A model generated the notes under the pieces. That model was not told the origin of the DNA. It searched no databases and was given only the letters and a program-made list of their open reading frames with translations. Position numbers and translations under genes: made by a program. Shown piece by piece: positions 3-36,031 of a stretch of DNA of 47,823 nt (position 1 is its first letter; each line of letters opens with the position of its first letter). The DNA lies in NCBI GenBank assembly GCA_022616535.1, contig JAKEEM010000024.1, positions 1 through 47,823 of the forward strand. Direction: 5' to 3'. This DNA is from Chlorobiota bacterium. GTDB taxonomy: Bacteria > Bacteroidota > Ignavibacteria > Tepidaquicellales > OLB5.

Positions 3-1801
3 AAATATTTCTACGGCGAGCTGGACGGTTTTTCAGAGGGTATTTCAGCCGACGAAAGCGGAGAAAGCGAACCATTCGTTAAAGTGATTAAGGAGGGTAC
101 TCATTATGTTTGCAATGACATTGAAACCAATGTTCAGCTGAAAAGCCGGAAGGATGAATTTATAAAGCAGGGATTTAAGTCATTTGCAGCTTTTCCGATT
201 AAGGTGAAAAACAAGGTTGTTGCCGTATATAATGTGTATTCTGAAAATATTAATGTATTTGAAAAGCAGGAAACAGACCTGCTGCTTGAGCTTGCCAATG
301 ATATTTCCTTTGCTTTAGAATACATTGAAGTGGAGCAGGAAAGACGGCTGATTGAGGGGCGGTACAGAAATATTGTGGAAACGGCTCCAATTGGCATAAT
401 TCTAAGCGTTGAGGGAAAGCTTGCATACGCTAATCCCGAGTTCGTTAAAATAATGAGGGCTAAAAGTCCTGAAGAACTGCTTGGAAAAGAAGTTATAAAG
501 TTCATACATCCCGAATTCCACGATGCTGTAGGCGAAAGAAGAAAAAGGATTTTAAAAGGGCTAAGCAATCCTGAAATTGAACAAATATGGAGCAGGATGG
601 ACGGCTCAAACGTTTATCTTTCGGTTTCGGCAATTCCATATTACTTAAATGAAAGCATCATCGGAGTCCAGGTTCTTGTTCGAGACATTACCGAGAGGCG
701 GAAGATGATTGAGGATTTAAAAATAAGCCAAGCGCGCCTTAAAGGCATTGTTGATTCTGCAATGGATGCAATAATTACAATAGATTCAAATAAGAAAATT
801 GTGGTATTCAACGAATCTGCCGAAATAATGTTCGGCTATAAATCAGAGGATGTATTTTTAAAAAAATTGAATATTCTTATCCCTCAGAGATTTCATGAAG
901 TTCATGATTCACATATAGATAGATTTGGCGGGTCAGGTGCTACAAGCAGAAGCATGGTCATTTAAACCCGTTAAGAGGAATTAGACAAAACGGAGAAGAG
1001 TTCCCAATCGAAGCCTCTATTTCACAAATTGAAATTGACGGTGAAAAATATTATACTGCGATAGTAAGGGATATATCTGTAAGGATGCAAAATGAGCGTG
1101 CATTGAATGAATCAAACGAACGCTTGCACTCGCTTGCGGCGCACCTGCAGACGGTAAGGGAAGACGAAAGAACTTCCGTTGCAAGGGAAATCCACGACCA
1201 GCTTGGGCAGGAGCTTACTGCTTTGAAGATGGATATAAGCTTCTTAAAGAAGCGCATTGAATCGACAAGAGATAATCCCGAATGGAATAATATTCTGGAG
1301 AACCTGAAATCGATGACTGAAGTGATTGACATGACTGTTAATTCCGTGAGGAGAATTGCACGCGAGCTCAGGCCTGATATACTGGACAAGCTCGGCTTAA
1401 TCGAAGCTATCGGATGGCATGCGGAGGAATTTGAAAAAAGGACAGGTATTAAATGCATTTTGAATTTGCAAAACGGAAAAATAAAGTTTGACGAGAATCT
1501 AAGCACTACCATATACCGTATCGTTCAGGAATGCTTAACAAACGTAGCAAGGCACTCCGCTGCAACTGAAGTTAGAATAACAATCCAAAGCGATGACTCC
1601 TATCTTCATCTCCGGATAGCTGATAACGGGAAGGGTATTTCCGAGGATGAAATCAACAACACAAAGTCATTGGGTCTGGTTGGAATAAGGGAAAGGGCGT
1701 ATTCGGCGGGGGGCGAGCTTAAAATTGAAGGTGAAAAGAACAAAGGAACGAAATTAAAAATAATCATTCCATTAAACGAACATGCCGGAAAATACTATTA
1801 A
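3..1801 (+). CDS. GAF-PAS-PAS-HisKA_3 sensor histidine kinase, 5' partial, one-base frameshift
   Basis: This is a cytoplasmic sensor kinase that should autophosphorylate on histidine and pass the phosphate to the regulator encoded next. The frame is open from the window edge, so the N-terminus lies outside; GTG at 84 is not the real start. In order it shows a GAF C-terminal part, a PAS domain (about 360-700), a second PAS domain (about 710-1080), a HisKA_3 dimerisation helix with the REIHDQLGQEL phospho-site (about 1180) and a HATPase domain with DNGKGIS and GLVGIRERA. Reading stops at 963 inside the second PAS domain, but the missing half continues one frame over from GHLNPLRGIRQNGEEFP. One extra G in the GG pair at 956-957 would restore a single protein. 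I infer a sequencing error or recent mutation. It overlaps the regulator by 20 bp. The family call is firm; the signal is unknown. Confidence 0.88.
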
Positions 1802-2429
1802 CATAATTATAGCAGACGACCACGCTTTTTTAAGAGAGGGCATAAAAAAAACAATCAGGGATGAAATCGATATGAGTATCATTGGCGAGGCTTCCAATGC
1901 GGCGGATTTACTTAGAGAAGTCAAGCAAAAGGAAGCAAACGTGGTTATACTTGATATTTCGATGCCCGGCAAAAGCGGGCTTGACGTTTTAAAGGATTTG
2001 AAGGCGATGAGGAAAAATCTGAAGGTGCTGATCTTAAGCATGCACCCCGAAGAGCGTTTTGCAATACGCGCATTAAAAGCCGGTGCGATGGGCTACCTTA
2101 CAAAGGAAAGCGCGCCCGATGAGCTTGTTAAGGCAATAAGAACGATTTTAACAGGAAGGAAATACGTTTCCAAACAGCTTTCAGATAAGCTCCTTGATAT
2201 TATAACTGCCGAAGAAAGCGGAAAACTGCCGCACGAGGAGCTTTCAGACAGGGAATTTGAGGTGTTTATTAAGATTGCATCAGGCAAAAAGGCGTCCGAG
2301 ATTGCCGAGGAGCTTTCAATAAGCATTCACACAGTTAATACCTACCGCGCAAGGATATTGGAAAAGCTTAACATGAGCTCTAACGTTGAGCTTACACAGT
2401 ATGCAATGCACAATAATTTAATTGATTGA
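1782..2429 (+). CDS. NarL/FixJ-family response regulator (receiver + LuxR-type HTH)
   Basis: A DNA-binding response regulator of 215 residues. The N-terminal receiver domain (about 5-120) has the acidic pair IIADDH, the phospho-acceptor aspartate in VVILDISMPG, a conserved serine in LILSMH and the lysine in YLTKES. The C-terminal GerE/LuxR helix-turn-helix (about 150-210) carries LSDREFEVFIKIASGKKASEIAEEL as the usual pattern, followed by SIHTVNTYRARILEKL. The ATG lies inside the end of the kinase gene, so the pair is translationally coupled and forms a cognate system. Length is normal for the family. Target genes cannot be read from the sequence. Confidence 0.93.
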   Translation: MPENTINIIIADDHAFLREGIKKTIRDEIDMSIIGEASNAADLLREVKQKEANVVILDISMPGKSGLDVLKDLKAMRKNLKVLILSMHPEERFAIRALKAGAMGYLTKESAPDELVKAIRTILTGRKYVSKQLSDKLLDIITAEESGKLPHEELSDREFEVFIKIASGKKASEIAEELSISIHTVNTYRARILEKLNMSSNVELTQYAMHNNLID

Positions 2430-2505
2430 TTTACAGTTAATTAAAGCTTCGCTTTAACCCTTGATTGTAATAATTTTAACTACATAACTTTCATAGTTTA
2501 CGCTC

Positions 2506-2535
2506 TAACCCTAAAATCACCTATGGGTTATTTTT
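2506..2535 (+). terminator. Possible intrinsic terminator after the response regulator
   Basis: TAACCC (2506-2511) can pair with GGGTTA (2525-2530) across a 13-base loop and is followed by a run of five T. The stem is only six pairs, so the call is tentative. The rest of the 124-base gap before the next gene shows nothing clear. Confidence 0.4.
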
Positions 2536-2553
2536 GTACAGTTTAAAAAATAC

Positions 2554-2925
2554 ATGCAAAATAAAATGTTCATAGTTGAAGACTCAGACCTGGTTGTAAC
2601 CAAGCTCGAAAAGCTTCTTGAGCCGCTGAGCGGGGTAAAAATCCAGGGCAGGGCTTCGGACGAATACACTGCCGTAAAAATGATTGATGAGCTCAATCCC
2701 GATTACGTTATACTCGATATATCTTTGAAATACGGCCACGGGCTAAGAGTTCTTGAGAAAATCGAGAACATGAAAAACAAACCGTACGTGATAGTATTAA
2801 CAAACCTTAATTATGAATTTTACAAAGATAAATGCCTTAAGCTTGGAGCCGATCACTTTTTCGATAAGGCAATGGAATTTGAAAAAGTGTATGACATCCT
2901 AAGCGAAAGAGTTTCGAAAAATTAG
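2554..2925 (+). CDS. Stand-alone CheY-like receiver protein
   Basis: A single receiver domain of 123 residues with no output domain. Key residues are visible: the acidic pair in IVEDSD near the start, the phospho-acceptor aspartate in VILDIS, a threonine in IVLTN and the lysine in FFDKAM. Such proteins act by protein contact or as phosphate shuttles in phosphorelays. The next gene is a histidine kinase whose proposed GTG start follows after 13 bases, so the two probably work together. The start is an ATG after an AT-rich stretch with no strong ribosome binding site. Confidence 0.85.
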   Translation: MQNKMFIVEDSDLVVTKLEKLLEPLSGVKIQGRASDEYTAVKMIDELNPDYVILDISLKYGHGLRVLEKIENMKNKPYVIVLTNLNYEFYKDKCLKLGADHFFDKAMEFEKVYDILSERVSKN

Positions 2926-2938
2926 TAGGGAAGACACA

Positions 2939-4121
2939 GTGAATCAAAAGAGCAGCACCTTACCCCTTGTGGCAGGTAACAGCCGTAACGGGACCGGAGA
3001 AAACAATACAGCTGGAGAAAACAATACAGCCGGAGAAAACAATACAGCCGGAGAAAACAAATACAGGAAGCTTTACGAATTCATCAAGAGTCAAAAAGCT
3101 TGAGCTGAACGAGGATTTATTCAGCTCAATGATACGCCACAGCACCGATATAATAACCGTCATTGATGAGCGGGGAAACATTCTGTACGAAAGCCCATCG
3201 GCAGGAACAATCCTTGGTTACGAAGAAGGCGAGCTAACCGGCAAAAATGCTTTTGATTTTGTTCACAAAGATGACTTAAGAAAAGTCCGTCAGGTTTTTT
3301 CAGAGGGTTTAGAAAATCCTCAAAAACCCGTAAAAGCCGAATACCGCTTCATGAAAAAAAACGGTTCTTACGTATACATTGAATCTGTTGGAACCAATTT
3401 TGCGGAGCTTGAATCAATCGGAGGCATTGTTGTAAATTCAAGAGACATTACCTCAAGGCGTGAAAAAGACGAGCAGCTTAACAAAGCCCTTGCTGAAAAG
3501 GAAGCAATGCTCCGCGAGATTCACCACCGAGTAAAAAACAATCTTCAGATAGTATCAAGCCTTTTGAGCCTTCAGGCGTCATCAACCGGCGACCCCAAGC
3601 TTAAGAGCCATTTGCTTGTAAGCCAGAACAGGGTGAAGGCGATGGCTTTAATACACCAGCTTTTGTACAGGACAAAAAATCTCGGCGCAATAGAAGCCGA
3701 AGAATACCTTTACAGCCTTTCGAGCCAGCTTCTTGCAAGCTACGGCGAAACCGGAAGCAGAATAAAGGTTAAGCTTTACTCATCCGATGTTTTTTTCCCG
3801 ATAGAAACAGCCGTTCCCTTCGGGCTATTGCTTAACGAGCTGATTACAAACTCGCTTAAGCACGCTTTTCCGAGGGAAAGGACCGGCGAAATCCGCATTA
3901 CGATTTCAAGGGCTGACGAGGGCTTATTCGAATTAATTTATTTCGATAACGGGATAGGGGTTCCTCCTGCAGGCAGCCGCACGGATTCATTCGGGTTAAA
4001 CCTTGTCGATACGCTTGTAAAACAGCTTGAAGGAACAATAGAAAACCTGTCCGTTGAGGGAACAAAGTATAAAATTATTTTCCGGGGGATTAATTATCAA
4101 GCGAGATTCAATATTACTTAA
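2939..4121 (+). CDS. PAS-HisKA_2 sensor histidine kinase, probable frameshift near the N-terminus
   Basis: A soluble sensor kinase with one PAS domain (MIRHSTDIITVIDERGNI onward, ending VVNSRDIT), a HisKA_2 helix with REIHHRVKNNLQIVSSLLSL and a HATPase domain (LLNELITNSLKHAF, DNGIGVP). The PAS-kinase frame alone gives only a TTG start at 2967 with no ribosome site. A better start is GTG 2939, preceded by AGGGAAG, in another frame; that frame reads a GENNTA hexapeptide repeat and then YRKLYEFIKSQK, typical of the region before a PAS domain, and stops at 3101. Losing one A from the run at 3093-3097 would join the frames as IKSQKLELNEDLF. I therefore infer one gene from 2939 with an indel; the TTG start is the alternative. 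HisKA_2 kinases often lack fused regulators, which fits the receiver gene upstream. Confidence 0.8.
2996..3062 (+). repeat. 18-bp tandem repeat inside the kinase gene, three copies plus a partial
   Basis: The unit GGAGAAAACAATACAGCC occurs at 2996-3013 (last base T), 3014-3031 and 3032-3049, with a diverging partial copy from 3050. The unit is a multiple of three and encodes GENNTA in the frame of the GTG start at 2939 (PEKTIQ in the other frame). It would form a flexible Asn/Thr-rich linker ahead of the PAS domain and is prone to copy-number change. Confidence 0.85.
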
Positions 4122-4502: not shown

Positions 4503-4541
4503 TTAAATTAAATTTGGAATGTAATCTGAATTTTAAACCAG

Positions 4542-4632
4542 CGGAGAGGGAGGGATTCGAACCCTCGATAGAGGTTTAAGCCCCTATGACGGTTTAGCAA
4601 ACCGTTGATTTCAGCCACTCATCCACCTCTCC
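4542..4632 (-). tRNA. tRNA-Ser (anticodon GCT)
   Basis: Read on the minus strand this folds as a class II tRNA of 91 bases. The acceptor stem GGAGAGG pairs with CCTCTCC, the D arm contains TGGCTGAAA, the anticodon arm is ACGGT-TTGCTAA-ACCGT with GCT in the loop, a long variable arm (AGGGGCTTAAACCTCT) follows, and the T arm is GAGGG-TTCGAAC-CCTC. The discriminator is G, as usual for serine tRNAs. CCA is not encoded and must be added. It decodes AGC/AGU serine codons. Confidence 0.96.
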
Positions 4633-4691
4633 TAGATGTAAAAAAATGATGAAAAATATGGTAATCACTTATTAACAGAACAATTGATAAA

Positions 4692-4770
4692 CCTATGACG
4701 GTTTAGTCCGCCAACCGGCGGATTGATTTCAGCCACTGCACCCGCCTAAGGCGGGCTAATCCACCTCTCC
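4692..4770 (-). pseudogene. Degenerate 5' half of tRNA-Ser carrying two palindromes
   Basis: This stretch repeats the 5' half of the neighbouring tRNA-Ser: the acceptor strand, D arm and 3' side of the anticodon stem are recognisable, but the variable and T arms are missing. Two palindromes disrupt it. TCCGCC-AACC-GGCGGA (4707-4722) replaces one side of the anticodon stem and part of the loop, and CCCGCC-TAA-GGCGGG (4741-4755) interrupts the D-arm side. It cannot fold as a tRNA. It is best explained as a partial duplication with palindromic insertions. Confidence 0.7.
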
Positions 4771-5003
4771 ATTTATGACTGAAAGCACAAATTTACGAAT
4801 ATTAATGCTTTTAATAAAGTAAGTTATTGGACTTATATTGTCGGGACTTACGTCCAGACATAGAGAGGAAAGGAAGGATATTGAATAAGTAGAAAACCAG
4901 TCAAAGCCGACTAACCTTTAGCCCTACCTTTTTACCACATTTTAGCCATATTTTTCTTGAAAAAATTTATTAAATTAAGTTTAATCAAACTTATCACAGT
5001 GAT

Positions 5004-12077: not shown

Positions 12078-12320
12078 CCTGCCTTCAGCAGACAGGCATA
12101 CGAAAATCCTCAAATTTGTTGTTAGTTTCAAGATAAAAGGGGGTGGGGGTTATAAATAAGCAGTGTCTGCTTGCCGGGCAGACAACTTTGTATCTGTAGG
12201 GGCGTTCAACTGAACGCCCTGCTTGCTCTGTGCCAATGTCTCAGCAGAGTCTCCTGCACAGGGACTCTGCGTAAAAGTAAATCGCCAGAATCCTCTTAAA
12301 GAGAGACTCTGCCGGAACGG
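12078..12320. repeat. Cluster of short palindromes between the propeller gene and the SIR2 module
   Basis: The 280-base gap holds at least four hairpins: CCTGC...CAGG near 12078-12097; GTCTGC-7-GCAGAC (12165-12183); GGGCGTTCA-AC-TGAACGCCC (12200-12219), a perfect nine-pair stem; and GCAGAGTC with inner CCTG-CA-CAGG and GACTCTGC (12244-12270). A further AGAGACTCTGCC fragment occurs near 12300. No gene is apparent in the gap. Such stacked palindromes look like nests of REP-type elements and can also end transcription of the minus-strand module. Confidence 0.7.
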
Positions 12321-16499: not shown

Positions 16500-17132
16500 A
16501 TTAATATTAAAAATTATGTTTTATCATACAGCAGCATATTTTCGTGCTTTTTCTTCATGTCGTAACATTTGGATTCTTCGTTACACTCCAAATGACAAAT
16601 TAAGTACCAAATTTATATAATCTCAGCAATTTATGATATACAATTATTAATTAATAATTACTAATTAGTAATTGTTTGAGCTAACTGAAAACCAGATTTT
16701 ACTCTATATACCATATATGAGGTGAAAGTTAAACAAAGAGCTTGACAAATAAAATTTAATGTATTAAATTTACCACAGTATTATTAGTCCCCCTTTTAAG
16801 CTTGTCCCGCACAAGTGTAAACGGGATGCGGGAGGGGAATTAAAGAGGGATTTAAAAATATGTACACCCGTAAATTTCTAATCCCCCTCAAGGTCCCCCT
16901 TTGTAAGGGGGACTTTTAAACAAAATGACAAAATTTCACCATAAATATCACCCTGATTTGCAAAAAAAGCTCAATGCATTAAAATTTAACCAAAAATTTC
17001 ATCTAACTTTACATAATATGGGATTTGAAACACGCAAAATTTTTTTGGGTGAAAAATTTGATGAAAATGGCGGAATTTCGGCAATTCAGTTTTTAATCTG
17101 CGAAGGAGGTGGAAGCTAAAATCTGCGGGGGA
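16500..17132. other. AT-rich intergenic region with a MITE-like element
   Basis: No convincing gene is present in these 633 bases. The part near the SIR2 gene (16500-16785) is very AT-rich, includes ATTAATTAATAATTA-type simple sequence near 16648-16672 and should hold the promoter of the module. The centre is the inverted-repeat element listed separately. A 64-codon frame at 16925-17119 has no ribosome site or recognisable content, and I do not consider it a gene. Confidence 0.6.
16786..16914. mobile_element. MITE-like element with AGTCCCCCTT inverted ends
   Basis: A 129-base unit starts AGTCCCCCTTTT (16786-16797) and ends GTAAGGGGGACT (16903-16914), giving imperfect terminal inverted repeats of about 10-12 bases. 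It also contains internal complementary blocks (GGGATGCGGGAGGGG, AATCCCCCTCAAGG). There is no coding capacity. This is the form of a non-autonomous miniature element or a large hairpin repeat; the mobilising enzyme is not in the window, and I see no clear target-site duplication. Confidence 0.5.
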
Positions 17133-34834: not shown

Positions 34835-36031
34835 ATGAAAGCAAAAATAAAGGTATACGGCGAAATTGATGACAGGGCGCTGGCTCAAATCCAGCGGTGT
34901 TCCGCCGAGGCGGACTATGCTGTCTTATGCGCTGACCATCATGTAGGATACAGTATGCCTATCGGCGGGGCGGTGGCTTACAAAAATTTCGTGAGCCCTT
35001 CCGGTGTCGGGTTCGATATTGCATGCGGAAACAAAGCTGTGATGACCGATATCGAAGCAAAGGACGTTGACATAAAAAACGTGATGGATGAAATTATAAG
35101 ACGCATAAGCTTCGGAATCGGCAGAATAAATAATGAGCCGGTTGACCACCCGGTGCTTGATGAAATTGCTAAAGCTGATTTCACACCGCAGAAGAAAATG
35201 GCTAAGCTGGCAAGTGAGCAATTGGGAACGGTCGGAAGCGGAAATCATTACGTCGATTTGTTTGCAGATGAACAGGGAAGGCTGTGGGTCGGAGTGCATT
35301 TCGGTTCAAGGGGATTCGGGCACAGAACCGCGATGGGCTTTCTTGCTCTTGCACAGAAACTTGACTTTGACTCCAAGCCGAAAAATGCCAACAGCATGGA
35401 TGCACCGCCGACTCTGCTTGATGTGAAAAGTGAACTCGGAAAGGATTACATACAGGCAATGGAATTAGCGGGTAAATACGCATACGCAGGGCGTGATATG
35501 GCTGTAAGCAAGGTACTTGAAATACTCGGAGCAAAATCGCTGTATGAAGTACACAATAACCACAATTTTGCGTGGCTTGAGGAACATTTCGGGCAGAAAT
35601 ACTGGGTTGTGCGCAAGGGATGTACACCTGCGTTTCCACGACAGCAGTCATTTATCGGCTCAACAATGGGCAGCACTTCATACATAATAGAAGGTGTTGA
35701 TAGCGGTGATTCAAAGGACTCCCTTTATTCAACCATACACGGTGCGGGGAGAGTAATGTCACGCACACGCGCTGCGGGGAAAAGGAAATGGCGGCATGGC
35801 AAGCTGGTTTCGGTGTCAAGGGGAGAGATTAACTTCAAGCGAGTTAAGGAAGAAATGAGGCAGAAGGGAATCGAGCTCCGCGGCGGCGGTGCCGATGAAG
35901 CGCCGGAAGTCTATAAAAATTTAAATGAAGTGCTCAACTATCACCAGAATACGATAAAAATACTGCATCGCTTAAAGCCGATTGGTGTCGCTATGGCAGG
36001 TGAAGATGTGTATGACCCGTATAAGGATTAG
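34835..36031 (+). CDS. rtcB: RtcB-family RNA ligase
   Basis: A GTP-dependent RNA ligase of 398 residues that joins 2',3'-cyclic phosphate or 3'-phosphate ends to 5'-OH ends in RNA repair. Metal and active-site motifs are all present: GFDIACGNKAV, GSGNHYVDLF, VHFGSRGFGH, NHNFAWLEEHFG, and STIHGAGRVMSRTRAAG with the histidine that carries GMP. It is the short form, lacking the inserts of the 480-residue archaeal type. No archease or RtcA gene is nearby. It lies 12 bases after one ABC half-transporter and 74 bases before the other, an odd location. Confidence 0.94.
   Translation: MKAKIKVYGEIDDRALAQIQRCSAEADYAVLCADHHVGYSMPIGGAVAYKNFVSPSGVGFDIACGNKAVMTDIEAKDVDIKNVMDEIIRRISFGIGRINNEPVDHPVLDEIAKADFTPQKKMAKLASEQLGTVGSGNHYVDLFADEQGRLWVGVHFGSRGFGHRTAMGFLALAQKLDFDSKPKNANSMDAPPTLLDVKSELGKDYIQAMELAGKYAYAGRDMAVSKVLEILGAKSLYEVHNNHNFAWLEEHFGQKYWVVRKGCTPAFPRQQSFIGSTMGSTSYIIEGVDSGDSKDSLYSTIHGAGRVMSRTRAAGKRKWRHGKLVSVSRGEINFKRVKEEMRQKGIELRGGGADEAPEVYKNLNEVLNYHQNTIKILHRLKPIGVAMAGEDVYDPYKD

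Follow-up and report, generated by a model that had tools for sequence, protein, structure and literature searches.

A hairpin-bearing tRNA-Ser remnant in a Chlorobiota bacterium as a probable relic of a tRNA-associated GIY-YIG cassette

Introduction

The closest described counterpart of the locus reported here is SegB of phages T4 and T6, which the accessible text of two reports presents as a free-standing GIY-YIG homing endonuclease of tRNA regions (PMC13096335, PMC2988022). According to the accessible part of the first report, SegB cleaves within tRNA genes, its nuclease activity is required for the tandem amplification of tRNA together with segB, and its preferred motif, RAWTSGAAC, was found at 23 of 83 sites (PMC13096335). 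On our own reading of its letters, that motif would be the reverse complement of the tRNA T-loop.

The anticodon and T-loops of tRNAs are classic integrase crossover sites, and tRNA fragments at integrase attachment sites were reportedly described by Williams in 2002. Double-hairpin elements in the mitochondria of Allomyces are said to be mobile palindromes. In the accessible text on each, the GC clusters of yeast mitochondria are mobile palindromes (PMC4478555) and REP palindromes are linked to RAYT transposases (PMC3733652).

We analyzed a 47.8-kb stretch of DNA from a Chlorobiota bacterium (47,823 nt, hereafter the window) that carries a partial tRNA-Ser copy with two palindromes. The structures to which this remnant belongs resemble the SegB system, as far as the latter can be judged from the accessible text, in that a small GIY-YIG nuclease gene adjoins tRNAs, in that tandem arrays of a GIY-YIG gene plus a pseudo-tRNA recall SegB-driven tRNA amplification, and in that the SegB motif would correspond to the T-loop, which is the site of inserts and truncations here. 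They differ in lying on bacterial chromosomes and in encoding a domain of catalytic size only (70-140 aa), and the likeness is one of kind; they are also flanked by partial tRNA copies with swapped hairpins, none of which is mentioned for SegB in the accessible text (PMC13096335, PMC2988022). REP palindromes, as partially accessible, are likewise short and bacterial, and Y1 transposases are found in this genome (five matches, none on C44, the contig of the window). Unlike in that system, no GTAG tag was seen by eye at the remnant hairpins, and mobilization by a RAYT is not supported, the relative G007 having a tRNA-Ser pseudo-copy and no Y1 transposase match. The yeast clusters, as far as described in the accessible text, and the Allomyces elements share with our loci the insertion of short, GC-rich hairpins, single or double, close to RNA genes, but here the setting is bacterial, tRNA arms are replaced in register and tRNA duplications are tied to GIY-YIG genes. 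Among open PubMed Central papers, and for the search terms used, we found none that describes hairpin-bearing tRNA copies accompanying GIY-YIG genes on chromosomes, and the accessible text of an article on prokaryotic tRNA fragments mentions neither endonuclease nor hairpin (PMC9897764).

Results

The features of the tRNA-Ser locus are as follows.

4541..4632, minus strand: intact tRNA-Ser(GCT) (ARAGORN; Rfam RF00005, 58.6 bits), the only one found in the genome
4633..4691, minus strand: 59-nt spacer between remnant and intact gene, without a GIY-YIG frame (from the sequence)
4692..4770, minus strand: pseudo-tRNA-Ser, a copy of tRNA-Ser(GCT) positions 1-50 plus two hairpins (three 15-nt direct repeats with the intact gene, alignment score)
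4707..4722, minus strand: hairpin TCCGCC-GGTT-GGCGGA in the anticodon arm, in place of CGGTTTG (7 nt, tRNA positions 29-35)
4738..4758, minus strand: 21-nt D-loop insert with hairpin CCCGCC-TTA-GGCGGG (core 4741-4755), in place of tRNA position 13
4788..4819, minus strand: ancestral tRNA-Ser upstream (promoter-like) region, directly before the remnant and not before the intact gene

The remnant aligns with the intact tRNA-Ser(GCT), an essential gene, with a score of 62.5, compared with a maximum of 24.25 for shuffled sequences. Its extent bears out the initial annotation, which had described a partial copy retaining the 5' half. On the minus strand, three blocks are identical to the intact gene: 12 nt at the tRNA start (4770-4759), 15 nt between the two inserts (4737-4723) and the last 15 nt of the remnant (4706-4692). 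Both hairpins, TCCGCC/GGCGGA and CCCGCC/GGCGGG, have the perfect six-pair stems originally noted. They had been placed where the D and anticodon arms should be, which holds in part for the anticodon side, where the 5' half of the arm and part of the loop are lost and the 3' half (CTAAACCGT) is retained; on the D side, the hairpin is a D-loop insertion with the loss of one base, and the arm is not replaced. Counting hairpins with a stem of 6, at least 5 G/C and a loop of 3-4, we found none of their type in the window besides these two, with a chance expectation of 0.74 per window, or ~0.001 per 79 nt, under a first-order Markov null (50 simulations). The remark that similar GC-rich palindromes occur elsewhere in the window is weakly true, there being one close relative (34901-34914, of the CCGCC..GGCGG type); further GC-rich palindromes lie at 12200-12219 and 16893-16913. 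Neither ARAGORN nor an Rfam tRNA covariance match indicates a tRNA at 4692-4770. A functional tRNA is thus rejected there, leaving the description as a remnant standing, and a known RNA family is rejected as well, Rfam having given weak chance matches only.

The 70 nt upstream of the remnant resemble the region upstream of the intact tRNA-Ser in 8 of 13 relatives (in each case none of 500 shuffles was as good), whereas the 59 nt before the intact tRNA-Ser of the window resemble the tRNA upstream region of none of the 13. Thus, the remnant marks the ancestral gene start and the intact gene is a displaced copy.

We read the tRNA-Ser loci of 15 genomes of the family, of which that of G006 is truncated by a contig end and the single one from G013 contains a weak match only. 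Similarity to tRNA-Ser is present at the locus in relatives, in agreement with the initial annotation, and several have hairpin-bearing copies of their own, which adjoin the intact gene in G003, G004, G007, G008, G009, and G012. Those of G003 (L242) contain TCCGCC-AGTT-GGCGGA at positions 29-35, the same site and the same hairpin type as in the window. Relatives G001 and G005 have a tRNA-Ser(GCT) with a GIY-YIG gene and a second tRNA 3' end, while the stretch read in G002, G010, G011, and G014 contains no such copy. Regarding the wider neighborhood, tRNA-Ser and an adjacent TPR-protein gene share a strand in G008, G010, G011, and G014 and lie on opposite strands in the window, where the 4541-4770 tRNA-Ser block is flipped relative to the TPR gene as by a small inversion.

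Two tRNA-Ser loci from other families, L352 (G084) and L380 (G107), have an intact gene that is preceded by a short-offset 5' pseudo-tRNA-Ser(GCT), whose hairpin is at the anticodon or in the D-loop, and followed by a GIY-YIG gene. The window has this layout minus the nuclease gene, as no GIY-YIG gene was found in the spacer or flanks of its tRNA-Ser locus. The remnant is a hairpin-bearing cognate pseudo-tRNA on the same strand as, and beside, an intact tRNA, which is a feature of the class described below; because the locus has no GIY-YIG gene, we file it as a relic and not as a class member. It is called a cassette relic on account of the L352/L380 layout, the hairpin site that it shares with copies in G003 and the cassette present at this tRNA in G001 and G005. 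We consider that it is probably what remains, on the 5' side, of a cassette that invades tRNA genes, has a tiny free-standing GIY-YIG nuclease at its core and duplicated part of its target tRNA.

The initial annotation had proposed a search for further tRNA fragments with palindromes, and such fragments proved to be frequent. Scanning 1 kb on each side of the 46 distinct ARAGORN tRNAs of this genome, with a threshold set above shuffled flanks, we found same-strand pseudo-copies at 11 tRNAs (13 copies in total) and none on the opposite strand. Hairpins are present in the copies of nine of these tRNAs (Ile-GAT, Ile-TAT, Asp, Cys, Gly-TCC, Gln-CTG, Leu-TAA, Leu-CAA, and Ser-GCT) and absent from those of Thr-GGT and Leu-TAG. 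The same scan in relatives gave pseudo-copies at 3 of 40 tRNAs in G001, 13 of 39 in G003, 1 of 26 in G026 and 0 of 27 in G044, again with none on the opposite strand; G026, from another family of the order, and G044, from another family of the class, were each covered by 20 regions and not by all tRNAs, and G044 has a case outside the scan, at a tRNA-Met (L294). Some odd low-scoring tRNA calls may be further pseudo-tRNAs (G000:C76:88423-88493, C73:37945-38021); these odd calls include a tRNA-Tyr with anticodon ATA (49 bits) and an 85-nt tRNA-Arg(TCT) (47 bits).

Of 29 hairpins tabulated, 7 stand in for precisely the 17-nt anticodon arm and others for the 5' half of an arm, and 6, all double hairpins of 22 nt, are insertions into the T-loop of G003 tRNAs. 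A near-identical 22-nt double hairpin (TCCCGAAGGGACTCCTTTGGAG) is seen at the same T-loop spot in G003 pseudo-copies of Ile, Ala, Val, Pro, and Arg tRNAs (L216, L220, L230, L234, L235). The register of the exchange was examined at the anticodon arm in every copy with both 9-nt arm flanks conserved (at most one mismatch each), hairpin presence not being a criterion. Among 30 such copies, the arm is intact in 2 and less than 75% identical to that of the tRNA in 28, and 23 of these 28 swapped arms pair at five or more outer positions in exact register, compared with 0.23 expected after shuffling. Such a precise exchange of tRNA arms for unrelated hairpins, whether it came about by mutation or by selection, is unusual and calls for a mechanism.

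Neutral decay might provide one: tandem tRNA duplication would yield spare copies in which short selfish palindromes (REP-, GC-cluster- or double-hairpin-like) accumulate, intact tRNAs being intolerant of them, with GIY-YIG genes merely sharing the sites. Consistent with this, the hairpins fall into a few families (TCCCG..CGGGA, TCCGCC..GGCGGA) that are present elsewhere in the genome too, which has 62 CCGCC..GGCGG sites and 15 of the reversed pattern, the near-identical G003 double hairpin recurs in the T-loop of six different tRNAs, and many pseudo-copy arrays of G003 and G001 have no GIY-YIG gene. But decay does not predict arms exchanged in exact register between near-identical flanks, or copies that all lie on one strand. 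Nor does it fit the distribution of TCC..GGA hairpins, which are 11 to 25 times denser near tRNAs (within 400 bp) than elsewhere in G001 and G003 (0.21 and 0.51 per kb, respectively, vs 0.02), with corresponding values of 0.16 vs 0 in G026 and 0.16 vs 0.05 in G044. Free hairpin insertion throughout the genome is not supported by aligned G001/G003 DNA (147 kb), where few of 58 gaps are GC-rich hairpin gaps. We therefore judge neutral decay to be unlikely.

The pseudo-tRNA could instead be kept as a structured RNA, serving as a 5' leader, an mRNA end or a regulatory decoy co-transcribed with the tRNA. The remnant does sit behind the tRNA promoter region, it folds better than the majority of shuffled sequences (z -2.3; equaled by 5 of 200), and stems vary elsewhere while remaining complementary, as among the tRNA-Pro copies, in which stem sequences change and pairing is kept. 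However, the two hairpins alone account for the fold of the remnant, and the copies differ in extent (5' part, 3' part or full) as well as in which arm is altered, making retention as an RNA a poor prospect, in our estimation.

The cassette reading draws on the GIY-YIG genes found beside tRNAs at other loci. Pfam PF01541 was matched in all five genomes searched. This genome has seven GIY-YIG matches, two of them long (583 and 649 aa, UvrC-like by length) and five small, and all five small genes adjoin tRNAs, namely Asp, Leu-CAA, Met (twice), and Gly-TCC (P ~1.5e-9). The wider PF01541 search also revealed several small GIY-YIG genes in G001 and G003 that are not beside a tRNA. The mini proteins comprise 70-140 aa, with little beyond the catalytic domain; in 11 of them Y5, G18, and H30 are invariant and Y16, R26, and E62 nearly so. 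Two layouts are common, one in which the intact tRNA is followed by the GIY-YIG gene and a hairpin-bearing 3' pseudo-tRNA, and one in which a hairpin-bearing 5' pseudo-tRNA is followed by the GIY-YIG gene and the intact tRNA. The Gly-TCC locus of this genome has, in addition, a short-offset 5' copy. In the tRNA-Asp cassettes L289 and L297, the GIY-YIG frame enters the pseudo-tRNA (..HSGGRPD/E) and reaches its stop codon within the loop of the swapped T-arm hairpin.

A profile of the 11 tRNA-adjacent proteins had matches in 36 of 61 genomes drawn from the phylum. We examined 100 loci, consisting of 30 of the 40 PF01541 hits and 70 rows of the profile search (30 loci, then 40 from near the top of the list), which yielded 113 distinct GIY-YIG matches with split frames counted separately. 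Of these, 79 lie within 500 bp of a tRNA, a rate that is an upper estimate, as are those that follow, because a profile built from tRNA-adjacent proteins overstates the general rate. All 79 are on the strand of the tRNA, which precedes the nuclease gene in 59 cases and follows it in 20, and 26 tRNA types are represented. A cognate pseudo-copy is present at 63 of the 79, and 58 of these 63 copies contain a new hairpin, at least 4 of which consist, by eye, of tRNA sequence, compared with 73 of 291 control segments (Fisher P 7e-24).

For most of the remaining 34 matches, the scan registered no tRNA neighbor because ARAGORN had called none. Fourteen border recognizable tRNA pieces (L318, L337, L341, L345, L363), three are ~130-140 bp from a tmRNA on the same strand (L338, L372), and one mini gene abuts or overlaps the 5' end of the RNase P RNA gene (L321); the rest are without an RNA neighbor or further away. 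Thus, essential RNA genes other than tRNAs may also be targets (L338, L372, L321); no partial copies of tmRNA or RNase P RNA were found beside their GIY-YIG genes.

Some cassettes are repeated in tandem. At L345 (G105:C34), positions 929-3824 hold 7.9 copies of a 364-bp unit composed of a terminator, a GIY-YIG gene and the 3' part of a pseudo-tRNA-Met, with hairpins in the anticodon arm and acceptor strand. L297 (G026, Asp) and L300 (G003, Met) each have two tandem units of a GIY-YIG gene plus a pseudo-tRNA.

Discussion

The remnant is a true example of a recurring structure and is best filed as a relic of tRNA-associated, free-standing GIY-YIG elements, in a variant for which we found no account in open papers. 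A cassette entering a tRNA gene would duplicate part of that gene, yielding an intact copy and a pseudo-tRNA in which a short GC-rich hairpin replaces or interrupts at least one arm. In the window, the 5' copy would have stayed at the native promoter with the intact tRNA 59 nt further on, and the GIY-YIG gene would since have been lost, or would never have become fixed here. With that gene absent, the role of a nuclease at this particular locus is proposed by analogy to the loci that have one.

By analogy with phage SegB, the nuclease may cut tRNA genes, and repair of the cut from a cassette-bearing template would produce the duplication, with one intact and one partial copy. In the partial copy, replacement of the target arm would preserve homology while removing the nuclease target, and would shorten a direct repeat otherwise able to recombine the nuclease gene away. 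The function of the hairpin is the most tentative part of this proposal: it may make the copy a usable homology arm that is not cleavable, and may break up long homology that could collapse the duplication. The T-loop recurs as a boundary, as the 5' copies of Gly, both Ile tRNAs, Gln (L347), and Val (L371) end there and the double-hairpin inserts of G003 sit at the same point.

Several observations count against the cassette reading. The intact tRNA retains the presumed target, so that the immunity of the cassette is unaccounted for. Many copies have an intact T-loop and a swapped anticodon arm instead; a single fixed cut site therefore does not fit all of them. The arrays of G003 and G001 without a nuclease gene weigh on this side too, as does the fraction of random segments with a qualifying hairpin (73 of 291, the controls above).

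A stronger version of the cassette reading, which we regard as speculative and rather improbable, would make the cassettes natural cleave-and-rescue drives aimed at essential RNA genes, namely those for tRNA and perhaps those for tmRNA and RNase P RNA. The nuclease would destroy the gene and the cassette would supply an intact copy, the hairpin-swapped copy being a functional part, either as a cleavage-proof homology arm or as a transcribed guide. In the boldest variant, the adjacent pseudo-tRNA would be transcribed, its hairpin acting as a handle and its target-matching stretch guiding the minimal nuclease.

The recurrence of these structures beside dozens of tRNA genes across the phylum, in most cases together with a tiny GIY-YIG gene, suggests a poorly known class of selfish element that invades tRNA genes. 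If this class exists, chromosomes of the phylum harbor numerous copies of a mobile element that is among the smallest known to us and is aimed at genes that the cell cannot lose. It would also explain odd tRNA fragments that annotation dismisses as noise, and would provide both a chromosomal counterpart to SegB-type biology and a natural parallel to engineered cleave-and-rescue drives.

The initial annotation had read the copy as a possible scar of integration or repeat expansion, and this is partly supported: the evidence favors a duplication associated with a mobile gene, but one other than the usual tRNA-targeting integrase. That a tyrosine-integrase element (phage or ICE) left the remnant as its attachment-site scar in tRNA-Ser is very improbable, for although such fragments also place a partial tRNA beside an intact one, and clean half-tRNAs do lie near integrases in this genome (C3, C12, C48), none of its eight phage-integrase (PF00589) matches is on this contig, and the copy here is upstream, hairpin-bearing instead of a clean block of identity, 59 nt from the intact gene and without cargo, in a pattern also seen in tandem same-strand arrays.

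The clean partial tRNAs of this genome are a 5' Arg piece of 56 nt (L140, C3), a Val/Ile-like 3' part (L141, C48), a 3' Pro piece of 46 nt (L142, C36), and a 5' Asn piece of 39 nt (L143, C12). Three of the four (C3, C12, C48) have an integrase match within ~1 kb, and these pieces are probably ordinary attachment-site scars.
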